From positions 1-5,028 of the forward strand of contig JANLFM010000034.1 in assembly GCA_024655865.1 (NCBI GenBank): a DNA stretch of 5,028 bases, read 5' to 3'. The notes under the pieces were generated by a model. That model saw only the letters and a list, made by a program, of their open reading frames with translations, ran no database searches and was not told where the DNA came from. The position numbers and the translations under genes are program-made. This document shows, piece by piece, positions 6 to 5,028 of the stretch; the stretch's first letter is position 1; the number at the start of each line of letters is the position of its first letter. The DNA is from Caldisericota bacterium. Its GTDB lineage: Bacteria > Caldisericota > JANLFM01.

Positions 6-2348
6 TTAACCCGCTGAACCAGATTCCCCTGAATGGCGGTCAAGAAAAGCCAGTGCCCTCTCTCGTTCCCCGTCCATCAAGACAGTGACCGTGTGGCCCT
101 CCTTAACCTTTTCCAGGGGAATTACCCTGACAACCTTTCCAAGAGAGCCAACGCCTGGTACTAACCTTCTTACAATATTTGGGGAATTCTTGAAAAAGTC
201 CTCGTTGAAAAACACCTGCGGGTCATCCGGGTAAAGTGGAAGGTAGTGAATTTCAGCTTCCACCAGGTCCTGGAAAAAGTGAGTGCCGAAAGAGATCTCC
301 GGAAGATAGTCCTTCTTCCTCTTGGCAATTTCGATGATCATGGCGGTGTTGTTGATCTGACTGTAGCCCACTCGAACTCCTAACTTGATGTCTCCTCTGC
401 TTCCCCACCTTCCCGGTCCCATCAGGATAAACTTTTTTCGAGGAAGCTTGGAGTTCAAGGCGCCAATTATCCTTCCCACTTCGAGCAGTTCTTCAAAAGA
501 GGAAAGGGCATAATATTCATCGGGGTCAACGTATACCACGAACTCAATACCTTTAACTGCCCCGGTGGTTATGAATTTATTAGCAGTAAAAAGCCGATTT
601 TCAGGTGGCACATTTTCAGGAATGACAACGTGGGTAATGCTTCCAGAAAGGCTCTGCGGCCTGCATTGCAGAAGATATATCCTGTGCAAATCGCCATCGC
701 AGGCAAATTCCACATCCACCGGCCAGCCAAGGGCTTCCTGAAGAATTGTCAGGATGCTTCTAATCTGTGGCACAAAGGGACTCTGAGAAATCAGCCTGCT
801 AAAGGTGATCACCGGTCTGCCCTCTTTCAGCTGAAAAAAGTTGCCCACAGGCTGAAAAAGTTGATCATCCTGATAAATGGAAATTATATAAGAAAGATAT
901 GGTAGTTCCTCCCCTACTTCCTGGATCAGCCTCTCCACTGGAACAGTTTCAAACCTCCGTGTTTCCAGGTTAATTAAATCCACATTTTTCTGAGAGTACC
1001 AGTAAACTTCATCAGGGCTGACATTAATTCGTAAACTGGGTTGCCCCGGACTGAACATGAAGGGGTAATCATTCGTCATGCGATCGACAGCCCTTGTTCC
1101 TAATCCCATAACCATGCGCACAACGCCGTCTTCCCGTTTTATCCGGGGAGACCACCGGAACTCGTTATGGCTAAAAGCTACACCGGCAAAAGCAGGGAAG
1201 AAGTACTTTCCCGCCCTTCTTCCCACAACCTCCTGTATCAAAATGCCCATCTCTTCATTGAAATCAAGCAGCCCTCTTTCTCTGCGATACTCAATGGGAT
1301 CAGGGCCAAAAACGCTGGCGTAAATTTCCTCAATAGCATCAACTAATGCCTCCAGCCTTTCCTGTTTGGTGCCTTTATTCGCCAGAAAGAGGCTCTTGTA
1401 TTTACCTGCGAAAGCTGATCCCAATGTATCCTCAAGCAGACTGGAGGAGCGAACTACTATGGGTCGATCCCCAAAATCTTCAAGAACCAGGTTGAGACCA
1501 GCTACGATTTCCGGGGGCATAGCGGAATTTTTAAAGATCTGTTCCAAGTAAGGGTATTCCTGCCTGATCTCCATGGGGTTCCTGTATTTGATTGTGGGAA
1601 GCTCCTCAAGAGCGTTGAAATGAAGGAAGTCTATGATGCCATCTGACGTCAAAAACCAGGTCTTAGGAACGGAAAGATTACGCAGAGCGATATTGTCCTT
1701 TTTGGCAGCCATTAATATCTGTTGGGCCCGGAATAGCCCCGCAGCTTTTCCACCCAGCTTCCCATTTCCCTTTCCCGGACCGATAGTGTGGGTCAGGATT
1801 TCGTAAAAATCGGGAATCGAGCAATATTTCTTGGTAACGTTAATGTAGTCTAAATCCTCACTGAAAAACCTTCTGATTAGGGCTACCTTGATTCCCACAT
1901 TCTCTTCGGGGGTTAAAGAATTCATGGCATCAGGCATTCTGGAAAACCTGATTAAAGCATTTTTGATTTCTTCCAGGGGGATGTCTCTTTTTTCTGCAGC
2001 CATAGTCAGAAAGCGAGTTTGCTCATTCTTCAACCACCTCTCCACGAGCTTGGTAATGGTCTCCGGCGGCAGCCTTTCCGCGGCTACTTTGAAGACCTCG
2101 TCAATAAATTTCTCAAGGAGCTCCGGACTTAGCCTGGGGAGGGGCTCATTTTCGCTACGTACAAGATCCTTTTCCGGGCGGGAAGAGGTTAAGCTCAATT
2201 GCTGCATCAAATCCTTAATTTCCAGGATGTTGCATTTAAAAAGATAATTCATCATCCTGCGCCCTATCCTTTCCAGGAGAGTGGGATTAGAGGTGCGCAA
2301 GAGATCGATGAAAACCTGCCACTCCGGCTTAGGCGAAGTTGTGCTCAT
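6..2348 (-). CDS. PPDK_N-like ATP-grasp protein with helical N-terminus, paralogue of upstream gene
   Basis: Probable cytoplasmic ATP-dependent phosphotransferase or partner subunit of the upstream protein; substrate unknown. At 780 aa it has no signal peptide or membrane segment. Residues 1-190 are charged and mostly helical, including the block ALIRRFF...YIN (156-170). Residues 192-565 are the PPDK_N-like ATP-grasp: GKLGGKAAGL with K201, VVRSSSLLED with R300 and E306/D307, FAG 313-315, LIQEVVG 370-376, GLG 415-417, and DVEFA (D545, E547) followed by QCRP (Q561, R563). The C-terminal module has GPGRWGS 644-650 and GTHFF (H690), aligning with the upstream protein. A phosphohistidine domain and PEP/pyruvate TIM barrel are absent, so canonical PEP synthase or PPDK is unlikely. 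The ATG at 2348 is chosen over an in-frame GTG at 2384 because a GAGGGA sits 5 nt before it and it overlaps the upstream stop as ATGA. Two consecutive TAA codons end the frame. The family is recognised; the function is not. Confidence 0.9.
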   Translation of the reverse strand: MSTTSPKPEWQVFIDLLRTSNPTLLERIGRRMMNYLFKCNILEIKDLMQQLSLTSSRPEKDLVRSENEPLPRLSPELLEKFIDEVFKVAAERLPPETITKLVERWLKNEQTRFLTMAAEKRDIPLEEIKNALIRFSRMPDAMNSLTPEENVGIKVALIRRFFSEDLDYINVTKKYCSIPDFYEILTHTIGPGKGNGKLGGKAAGLFRAQQILMAAKKDNIALRNLSVPKTWFLTSDGIIDFLHFNALEELPTIKYRNPMEIRQEYPYLEQIFKNSAMPPEIVAGLNLVLEDFGDRPIVVRSSSLLEDTLGSAFAGKYKSLFLANKGTKQERLEALVDAIEEIYASVFGPDPIEYRRERGLLDFNEEMGILIQEVVGRRAGKYFFPAFAGVAFSHNEFRWSPRIKREDGVVRMVMGLGTRAVDRMTNDYPFMFSPGQPSLRINVSPDEVYWYSQKNVDLINLETRRFETVPVERLIQEVGEELPYLSYIISIYQDDQLFQPVGNFFQLKEGRPVITFSRLISQSPFVPQIRSILTILQEALGWPVDVEFACDGDLHRIYLLQCRPQSLSGSITHVVIPENVPPENRLFTANKFITTGAVKGIEFVVYVDPDEYYALSSFEELLEVGRIIGALNSKLPRKKFILMGPGRWGSRGDIKLGVRVGYSQINNTAMIIEIAKRKKDYLPEISFGTHFFQDLVEAEIHYLPLYPDDPQVFFNEDFFKNSPNIVRRLVPGVGSLGKVVRVIPLEKVKEGHTVTVLMDGERERALAFLDRHSGESGSAG

Positions 2349-5028
2349 TTCATTCCCTCGGGCTTTAATATTACTCCCTTGCACTTCCTACCGTCTATCT
2401 TTACCGTGAATGGGTGCTCGAAACGCAAAAGTTTCAGGTGCTCAGTTTCTATGAAAGTCGGGTAATTATCCAGAGACTCGTAATCCAGGAATGATTCCTC
2501 GCTCTTCTTTGAAACCGTAAAATACCCGATCCTTAAGGCGGAGAGATTGTGGAAAAAGTGGGATCCCTGGGAAGGCTCCACATCCAGGTTCTTCAAAGGA
2601 GTCTCCACGATTGCCTTCACCCCACTAATTTGTTCCCACCTGACCGGGATTCCCAGCCAGTGATCTGCTGATCCCCATCTCCCTGGTCCAATCAGGATAT
2701 AGGGTCTTCCTTCTCGGCGCAAATGTTCGTTCAAGGTTCCTACTTCCTGAGCGATGCGCCCGCTCTTTGCCTGATCATAATTTTCCTGCTTCACAACTAT
2801 CACATCTTTTACATTATCTATGATCCCATTCCCTAAAACTTTCTGGCTAAAACAGAAAACCTTCTCAGGAGGTATGCTTTGAAGATCGATTTCTACAAAT
2901 TCTCCTCGCCCCACCATGGGTCGCAGCTGCAAAAAGCCAAAATAGGCAGGGAGAACCCCGTCCGGGTTTAGACTGCAGGCAAACTCAATCTCTACAGCGG
3001 TACCCATAGCTTCTTTGGCCAGATCAAGCAGAAAGACGAGAATTTCGGATAGAGGAAAAAGGTTGTTCTTCAAAATATGAGCGAAAGTCAGCACCCTGGC
3101 TCCCGTTTTTAAAAGGCCGTCATAAAGGCGGTCCTCGTCCCGGGAATAGGTGGAAACGAGATATTTCAGCACGCCATCCTTTTCAGCCTCTTCCAGCCAT
3201 AACTTCAGGAGATATTGATCTTCTTCTGTATATGCTTTTGTGGCTAAAGGCTGCATGTTGATACAATAAAAATGCCTTTGAGATTGAGCTATCAGTTCTT
3301 CTATATTGTTAAAACTTACGGGAATTCTGGGATATTTGGGGATAAAGGTGAATGAGGCCTCGCCCTCGACCACGGTTTTGCCCAGGCCTAAGGCGATATT
3401 TGCCACCCCGTCTTCCGGCTTTGCCCCTCCGAAGGGGTAATAATTATAGGATTTGGCCACCCCGGAAATGTCTGGATAGAACCGCTTATCCCGCCTTTGC
3501 CCCACGACTTCCTGGATGATCACCGCCATCTTTTCCTCCTGAATTTTATTGTTCGTGGCTTCCAGATAAGACTTAGCGTTTCGGAAAAAGGTGGAGGCAT
3601 AAACTAATTTGATGGCATTGACCAGGCTAAGAAACCGGGTATCGAGGTCCAAAAAGCTATTGGGAATCATTTTCGTCAAATAGATCCCTGCAAAAGGGTG
3701 ATACAGGGCATCCTCAAGAAGGCTAGAAGAGCGAATCGCTAGGGGAGTTCTCACTTCTCGAATGAAGTTTCTTAGATCACCGAGAACTGTGGGAGGAAGG
3801 GAGGCATTAATAAAAGCGTTAGCAATGCGGATATCGGATTTTTCCTCGTAAGCCATGAGCGTGAGTTTATTAGCCTCTAAGAATTCGTCAAATATGTCTG
3901 TGCCCAAAACCAGGGTTCTGGGAATCTCAATTTTTACTCCCGGAAATTTAGCAAGTTCCAGGTTTAAAGAAAGCACCTTATCAAAAAAAACTAAACCCCG
4001 CGCTTTTCCCCCCAAGGATCCCCCGCCCATGCGACAGAAATGCCACTGGTCAACGCTGAACCTCCTTGAATAAGGGACTACCTTACCTACCTGCTTTTTT
4101 ACCCTATCTTTATTTAGCAGGCTCGATAACTTTTGGCGGAAATCCTCTGGATTCTTCAAACCTTGAAATTCGGAGCCTTCTAAAGCCGAGGCTAATTGAA
4201 ATTCTGTTCGCGCCAAAAGCCACCTTCTCAGGCAACCCCTTTTATAGCAGGAATAAATTGATTCTGGCGGTAAGCTGTCAATCACGTAAATCAGGCTCTC
4301 CAAGGAGGGTATTCTGGCGACCTCTTTCTCGCTATTGTCTCTGAGAATTAAATCTCCGAATCCAAACTTCTCGAAAAGTAGTTTGCGCAGGTTAAAGACT
4401 AAGAATGGCGAGTTTTTCAGGATCAGATCAGCATCAAATTCTTTAGCCCAATCTGTTACCGAATTCTCCGATGACTGCAGGATAATGGGTAAATGAGGTT
4501 CTTGGGAGCGAATATACTTGATCAACTCGTATCCCGCCGTTGGGCTCTCCTGGCCGTCCTGGGGAAAACTGGCATCACTAATAACTCCCAGAAAGTGACC
4601 TTTTAATTTCTTGTAAATCTTGAGCGCTTCCTCGAATGTAGTAGCTAGATGAAGCCGCGGCCTTCCTCTCTGCCGAATGACCTTTTCCTCAAAAGAGAGT
4701 TTTCCTTCCAGGAGGCTGGCGGTGAGTTCCCAGAGCATTTCGTAGAGCAAATTTAAATAGGAGGAATAAAAATCGGGGGAATCCTCAACCAGAAGCAAAT
4801 TAGGGATCCCGGTAAGGCTTACATCGTGTTCCGCATTGAACTTATCCTCTATTAACTGGACAATCCCCACAATCAGACGGCCATTGCCTTGCCAGAGGAA
4901 AATCTCATCAAAAGCGCCCTTTCCCTGGGCTTTAATCAAGGAGAAGACTTCTGGGCCATTAAAAGCCAGAGCGACAACAGGCATTCCCTGGTGGAGCCGC
5001 TTCATATGCTCCGCAAATGCCAGAGCCT
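2345..5028 (-). CDS. Receiver-domain/PPDK_N-like ATP-grasp fusion protein, 5'-partial
   Basis: Probable receiver-controlled ATP-dependent phosphotransferase; substrate unknown. Residues are numbered from the first in-window ATG (5005, 886 aa). Residues 1-57 look like the second half of a receiver fold: strand PVVALAF, strand FDEIFLW, last helix, with W-Q where the conserved Lys-Pro should be. Residues 68-215 form a fuller receiver: acidic E74/D75, phosphoacceptor D144 in VISD, S178/S179, K197. Residues 322-697 are PPDK_N-like ATP-grasp: GGGSLGGKARG with K334, RSSSLLED with R425, FAG 438-440, IIQEVVG 496-502, GLG 540-542, and EIEFA (E672, E674) with QLRP (Q693, R695). The C-terminal module has GPGRWGS 773-779 and GSHFF (H816). 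No phosphohistidine-domain motif or TIM barrel is present. The frame stays open from 5005 to the edge (eight more sense codons) and the ATG lacks a well-spaced Shine-Dalgarno, so the start lies outside. It ends in an ATGA overlap with the next gene. The domain calls are firm; the activity is inferred. Confidence 0.88.
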   Translation of the reverse strand, partial: ALAFAEHMKRLHQGMPVVALAFNGPEVFSLIKAQGKGAFDEIFLWQGNGRLIVGIVQLIEDKFNAEHDVSLTGIPNLLLVEDSPDFYSSYLNLLYEMLWELTASLLEGKLSFEEKVIRQRGRPRLHLATTFEEALKIYKKLKGHFLGVISDASFPQDGQESPTAGYELIKYIRSQEPHLPIILQSSENSVTDWAKEFDADLILKNSPFLVFNLRKLLFEKFGFGDLILRDNSEKEVARIPSLESLIYVIDSLPPESIYSCYKRGCLRRWLLARTEFQLASALEGSEFQGLKNPEDFRQKLSSLLNKDRVKKQVGKVVPYSRRFSVDQWHFCRMGGGSLGGKARGLVFFDKVLSLNLELAKFPGVKIEIPRTLVLGTDIFDEFLEANKLTLMAYEEKSDIRIANAFINASLPPTVLGDLRNFIREVRTPLAIRSSSLLEDALYHPFAGIYLTKMIPNSFLDLDTRFLSLVNAIKLVYASTFFRNAKSYLEATNNKIQEEKMAVIIQEVVGQRRDKRFYPDISGVAKSYNYYPFGGAKPEDGVANIALGLGKTVVEGEASFTFIPKYPRIPVSFNNIEELIAQSQRHFYCINMQPLATKAYTEEDQYLLKLWLEEAEKDGVLKYLVSTYSRDEDRLYDGLLKTGARVLTFAHILKNNLFPLSEILVFLLDLAKEAMGTAVEIEFACSLNPDGVLPAYFGFLQLRPMVGRGEFVEIDLQSIPPEKVFCFSQKVLGNGIIDNVKDVIVVKQENYDQAKSGRIAQEVGTLNEHLRREGRPYILIGPGRWGSADHWLGIPVRWEQISGVKAIVETPLKNLDVEPSQGSHFFHNLSALRIGYFTVSKKSEESFLDYESLDNYPTFIETEHLKLLRFEHPFTVKIDGRKCKGVILKPEGMK
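2354..2359 (-). promoter_or_regulatory. Shine-Dalgarno GAGGGA for the downstream gene, inside the end of the upstream gene
   Basis: On the minus strand GAGGGA ends 5 nt before the ATG at 2348. It is made by the Glu-Gly codons just before the last two residues of the upstream protein, whose stop TGA (2347-2345) shares bases with that ATG. This decides the start of the downstream gene and implies that ribosomes finishing the first frame can restart on the second (translational coupling). No room is left for a separate promoter between the genes, although one inside the upstream coding region cannot be excluded. Confidence 0.75.

Follow-up and report, generated by a model that had tools for sequence, protein, structure and literature searches.

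What do two adjacent genes encode when each carries the PPDK_N ATP-grasp domain of PEP synthase and PPDK, and neither carries the barrel on which those enzymes depend? The question is raised by the window, that is, the whole stretch of DNA analysed here (5,028 bases, positions 1-5028 of contig C27, which measures 10,769 bases and belongs to a genome of 1.8 Mb). It is filled by two minus-strand genes, which we call A and B and which are laid out as follows.

6..2348, minus strand: gene B, 780 aa, with a helical N-terminal region, a PPDK_N ATP-grasp domain and a C-terminal swivel-like domain
9..629, minus strand: C-terminal domain of B, a homologue of the C-terminal domain of A, with which it shares every invariant residue
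273-293, minus strand: SFGTHFF motif of B, with its His at 279-281
630..1760, minus strand: PPDK_N (ATP-grasp) domain of B, PF01326 at 180.7 bits, above cut-off
2345..2348, minus strand: ATGA junction, 4 bases, where the B start codon overlaps the A stop codon
2345..5028, minus strand: window part of gene A; the whole gene is C27 2345-5356, 1003 codons including 10 N at 5029-5038, with the domain order REC1-REC2-linker-PPDK_N-swivel-like domain
2348..2914, minus strand: C-terminal domain of A, a predicted swivelling beta/beta/alpha domain
2552..2572, minus strand: SQGSHFF motif of A, with the invariant His at 2558-2560, a candidate phosphohistidine
2669..2689 in A and 399-419 in B, minus strand: GPGRWGS motif, invariant core of the C-terminal domain
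2912..4018, minus strand: PPDK_N (ATP-grasp) domain of A, PF01326 at 111.3 bits, above cut-off
4349..4807, minus strand: REC2 of A, residues 67-219 of the window slice, with E74/D75, D144 (4574-4576), S178 and K197 conserved

The ends of the two genes needed some revision. An earlier note had described an overlapping pair of paralogues, and two minus-strand genes with PF01326 in both are indeed present, but the overlap is the four-base ATGA and not 40 bases. The longer figure arises from a GTG at 2384, an alternative upstream start of B; the ATG at 2348 is preceded by the Shine-Dalgarno sequence GAGGGA, and relatives of B start at the matching place. Translational coupling of A and B at this junction is likely, and the two paralogues are probably carried on one message. 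Gene A had previously been taken to lie within the window with a start at 5005, which we rejected, as A reads on beyond the window to 5356. Its N-terminal receiver domains had also been overlooked. The run of ten N (C27 5029-5038) falls inside gene A at the window edge, and its spacing is a few residues off when compared with a same-genus relative, so that the gap size is probably arbitrary. About 65-66 bp upstream of A on the same strand lies a gene for a glutamate dehydrogenase (GDH) of 428 aa (PF00208/PF02812), and no terminator-like site was found between GDH and A. In a same-genus genome B appears as two overlapping open frames of 391 and 401 aa, one per half (L047:6870-9247), where a true split and an assembly frameshift are both possible.

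Both ATP-grasp domains keep their nucleotide site. The nucleotide-site residues are K334, R425, E672/E674 and Q693/R695 in A and lie in the motifs GGK, RSSSLLED, VDVEFA and QCRP in B; across the family the Lys, the Arg, the acidic pair and QxRP are invariant or nearly so, which upholds the nucleotide-site signature previously read in both proteins. Beyond this domain the likeness to PEP synthase fades. Searches with Pfam PEP-utilizers and PEP-utilizers_C gave no match in A or B at E <= 1 and none in seven relatives with the limit set at E <= 0.1, no Pfam match to a PEP/pyruvate-binding TIM barrel was obtained, and A and B simply stop after their C-terminal domains. NCBIfam PEP_synth matches were weak and partial, with 49.7 and 25.5 bits where the cut-off is 739.75; RIF_Ptrans_rph scored 31.7 bits against 999, and no rifampin-binding domain lies between the ATP-grasp and C-terminal domains, which adjoin with zero intervening sequence. 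We also considered whether adjacent genes supply the missing domains, but neither the visible contig nor the relatives showed any that do so; the genome's PF00391 proteins are on other contigs. Its own PPDK is complete (898 aa), on another contig and not near GDH. That A and B might be an ordinary PEP synthase or PPDK has in its favour the PPDK_N similarity and those partial NCBIfam matches, weak and far under cut-off as they are, yet it is already refuted by the missing barrel, and with a complete PPDK elsewhere in the genome we give it practically no credence. Because neither a PEP-utilizers domain nor a barrel was detected the name "PEP synthase" would be wrong, and the earlier warning that annotation as "phosphoenolpyruvate synthase" would mislead was justified.

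The C-terminal region requires a different reading. In both proteins the roughly 190 residues after QxRP form one conserved domain, and the C-termini of 17 A and B sequences have in common GPGRWGS, an acidic residue, SxG[ST]HFF and a Tyr; the His of SxG[ST]HFF is kept wherever the region is complete (about 110 sequences). At the level of sequence this domain is silent. PF00391 found no match in A, B or relatives, the T/SxxGGxxxH (TSHAA) motif is absent from the domain, SxG[ST]HFF being there instead, hhalign returned nothing when the C-terminal alignment was compared with 22 PPDK central domains, a profile of A against PPDK aligned in the GGK region alone and not in the C-terminal domain, and the C-terminal profile gave chance matches only against the sequences of solved structures. 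Structure prediction was more informative. The C-terminal domain of A, modelled in isolation from a 46-sequence alignment, reached pLDDT 91.5 and pTM 0.89. Foldseek with this isolated domain gave no match at E <= 0.001, and a finer structural comparison of its candidates placed highest the phosphohistidine domains of PPDK (372-510, Z 7.2 over 124 residues) and of rifampin phosphotransferase (RPH, 755-867, Z 6.8), both below 8 and so within the tool's grey zone. Further top rows were enzyme I and pyruvate kinase, and the RPH structure paper lists the same set of matches for the RPH swivel domain (PMC4844700). In the whole-A model, the stretch 311-883 matched PEP synthase 4-467 (Z 26.4), 321-883 matched PPDK 7-511 and 311-882 matched RPH 5-867, so that the ATP-grasp domain and C-terminus of A are jointly covered by the corresponding two domains in all three enzymes. 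Most of the lower rows for the isolated domain (chaperonin apical domain, transferrin receptor apical domain, LdcA/MccF, aconitase, RraA, carbamoyl phosphate synthetase) share, under SCOP, this swivelling beta/beta/alpha fold.

The invariant His sits at the start of helix 119-126, after strand 99-105 of the domain model. From the known topology of PPDK we would expect its TSHAA His at the same place, at the helix start after that strand, a correspondence judged from the order of elements and not from coordinates. We consider the C-terminal domain to be a very divergent swivelling phosphohistidine-type domain, an assignment that is likely rather than proven given Z scores below 8, blank sequence profiles and the absence of T/SxxGGxxxH. 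The view that A and B lack both catalytic partner domains is thus probably wrong as it was put; the TSHAA motif and the barrel are absent as claimed and a classical PEP synthase or PPDK is rightly set aside, but the C-terminus is most likely a swivel domain to judge by its predicted fold, and phosphotransfer by the usual histidine chemistry of the family may accordingly still be open to it.

Two known systems offer a useful comparison. RPH and the two-component phenol dikinases (HpeHI) combine a PPDK_N-family ATP-grasp domain with a His swivel domain and have no PEP/pyruvate barrel, and proteins like RPH are frequently annotated as PEP synthase by mistake (PMC4844700, PMC12167813). A and B resemble them in having an ATP-grasp domain and a swivel domain, the latter predicted, without a barrel. 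RPH and HpeH differ in carrying a substrate-binding domain and a recognisable copy of the known swivel motif, T/SxxGGxxxH (PMC12167813), and A and B differ from RPH and HpeHI in the receiver domains of A and in the link of their genes to GDH. With PEP synthase and PPDK, A shares the order of ATP-grasp followed by a (predicted) swivel domain, whereas A and B have neither barrel nor TSHAA and bear extra N-terminal receivers (A) or a helical domain (B). An ATP-grasp domain with a probable partner domain is a known kind of enzyme; what is new is the divergent His domain, the missing acceptor domain, the receiver input and the GDH link.

The N-terminus of A consists of two receiver-type domains, the second complete within the window. 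PF00072 is over cut-off in relatives of A (37.7 and 36.9 bits) and the window copy falls below it (17.9 bits), but in REC2 the acidic pair, the phospho-Asp, the Ser and the Lys are all retained, and the model of A matches receiver structures at Z 14-16; A carries an intact receiver domain. Other members of the family are built differently. In the B-type relatives at L126:1332-4523, L083:12618-16118 and L100:924-4106 the N-terminus has a GAF-like region and the C-terminus a nucleotidyltransferase domain (NTP_transf_2/Polbeta), which suggests that they receive additional regulatory signals or carry out a second kind of modification. The family also includes a short form, about 580-600 aa long and made up of the ATP-grasp and C-terminal domains alone (G201:C237, G349:C26, G121:C8, G224:C108 and others), often directly beside GDH and B.

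The strongest clue to function came from gene neighbourhoods. In a same-genus genome a second GDH follows B, the order GDH-A-B-GDH recurs in related genomes, and genomes with B only also have GDH nearby. Two types of GDH flank the A-B pair in the phylum, one of 428 aa upstream and one of roughly 446 aa downstream (L006:5422-6708, L047:5383-6723). We gathered 80 loci by protein similarity from more than eight phyla, including Bacteroidota, Ignavibacteria, Gemmatimonadota, Acidobacteriota, Planctomycetota, Desulfobacterales, Actinomycetota, Calditrichaceae. In these and the own-phylum loci taken together, 58 A copies out of 106 had a GDH gene less than 1.5 kb away, which could lie on either flank and in either orientation. 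When neighbours of the 80 loci were clustered, GDH was by far the commonest (38 loci), the next unrelated family reaching 3. Alternating GDH-A-GDH-A-GDH arrays were seen in L055, L058 and L063, and a single contig carries B, GDH, A, GDH, A and GDH in series (L126:1332-15490). In Parabacteroides distasonis, gdhA and an A-type gene annotated as a "PEP/pyruvate-binding domain-containing protein" lie side by side in divergent orientation.

Among 386 genomes sampled broadly and not picked for GDH, 73 contained the A/B family, 60 of them outside the phylum. GDH was present in all 60, and lay within 3 kb of 34 of the 77 family genes there, compared with about 0.5% per gene by chance. Among 101 relatives, the presence of A/B and that of the partner GDH subfamily (at least 71% identity) coincided almost completely, with 15 shared out of 16 and 17 (p = 7e-15); counted by families the co-occurrence gave p = 1e-5. 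Genomes of common ancestry do not provide independent events for any of these counts, but the partner GDHs are spread over several clades, and one genome has the order A-GDH-B (G077), which together with the varied arrangements argues against one inherited block. For about half of the family, no GDH gene is adjacent. A residue conserved only in partner GDHs, as a shared modification site, was looked for and none was found. In the literature searched we found nothing linking PPDK_N or PEP/pyruvate-binding proteins with GDH, and no biochemical work on the A/B family. A possible precedent is Baggio and Morrison (1996), whose title, in the reference list of PMC4539542, refers to trans-acting gene(s) downstream of gdhA in Bacteroides thetaiotaomicron. 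As described by that title, the factor is a genetic one near gdhA that affects GDH activity in trans, as A may do, and Bacteroidota are rich in A-type proteins adjoining gdhA; however, the title places the gene(s) downstream of gdhA, whereas A in the Bacteroides loci examined is divergent and upstream of GDH. We regard an A-type identity for the factor named in that title as a lead and not a match.

Our best explanation is that A and B belong to an uncharacterised ATP-dependent dikinase-type family dedicated to GDH, receiver-gated and without a built-in acceptor domain, and we would put its chances of being right at about even. It draws on the computed domain content, the conserved ATP-site and receiver residues, the resemblance of predicted folds, the invariant His and the multi-phylum GDH link. 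Each protein would run from a PPDK_N ATP-grasp domain directly into a divergent swivelling domain with its invariant His. ATP would be bound by the ATP-grasp domain, and the His of the swivelling domain would take up a (pyro)phosphoryl group, with AMP released and later Pi. The group may then be passed to the neighbour-encoded GDH, or the loaded swivel domain may itself act on GDH, whose activity would be set by nitrogen or energy signals reaching A via its receiver. What we infer from this evidence is the role of the His as phosphate carrier, that of GDH as direct target or phosphate acceptor, and any direction of effect. Where an unknown acceptor had been proposed before, the gene neighbourhoods now supply a strong candidate context in GDH.

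Other readings of the same data deserve consideration. A and B could be non-catalytic nucleotide sensors, holding ATP or AMP on the ATP-grasp domain and controlling GDH allosterically by protein contact, with the C-terminus serving for docking and its His being structural or ligand-binding. The GDH link serves this reading as it does the main one, the divergent C-terminus without T/SxxGGxxxH speaks for it, and swivelling folds do also serve non-catalytic docking, for example in chaperonin apical domains. Against this, neither the His nor any of the nucleotide residues has changed across deep divergence, a degree of conservation suggestive of turnover and not mere binding, and we think a sensor rather unlikely. 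Alternatively the family might phosphorylate a small molecule of glutamate/2-oxoglutarate metabolism, in which case adjacency to GDH would reflect a common pathway and not modification of the enzyme. The closest solved ATP-grasp relatives, RPH, HpeI and PEP synthase, are all small-molecule dikinases, and HpeHI provides a precedent for a split one (PMC12167813). Such a metabolic role sits uneasily with the want of an acceptor-binding domain of the RPH or PPDK kind, with the receiver, GAF-like and nucleotidyltransferase domains in the family, which indicate regulation, and with tandem arrays having one family copy per GDH copy; we judge it unlikely. Finally, the proteins may be PPDK_N paralogues truly devoid of a phosphohistidine domain, working together in phosphotransfer, either as a heteromer or in sequence, on some unknown acceptor. 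The partner domains have no Pfam match and the A-B pair is conserved in its own phylum, but the fold evidence for a swivel domain speaks against it, and the many genomes with only A-type or only B-type proteins tell against a fixed heteromer and lend no support to obligate heteromerism of A and B. This we hold to be improbable.

To return to a dikinase-type family dedicated to GDH, the reading can be taken further. More tentatively, and at rather less than even chances, A and B may be response-regulator-gated ATP-grasp/phosphohistidine protein dikinases that covalently control GDH in roughly one fifth of the sampled bacterial genomes outside the phylum and in gut Bacteroidota. If true, this would be a form of GDH regulation unlike that by Ser/Thr kinases, PII or GarA. 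GDH is a central gateway through which nitrogen enters and leaves, and we know of no dedicated post-translational regulator of it in most bacteria. The presence of this family beside GDH genes in many phyla, including the abundant gut Bacteroidota, provides a named and testable candidate, and a predictable misannotation as PEP synthase is corrected in the process. Dikinase chemistry has, to our knowledge, so far been described on small molecules and glucans, and A and B suggest that it may be used on a protein. In this capacity they would probably regulate the flow of bacterial nitrogen into and out of glutamate.
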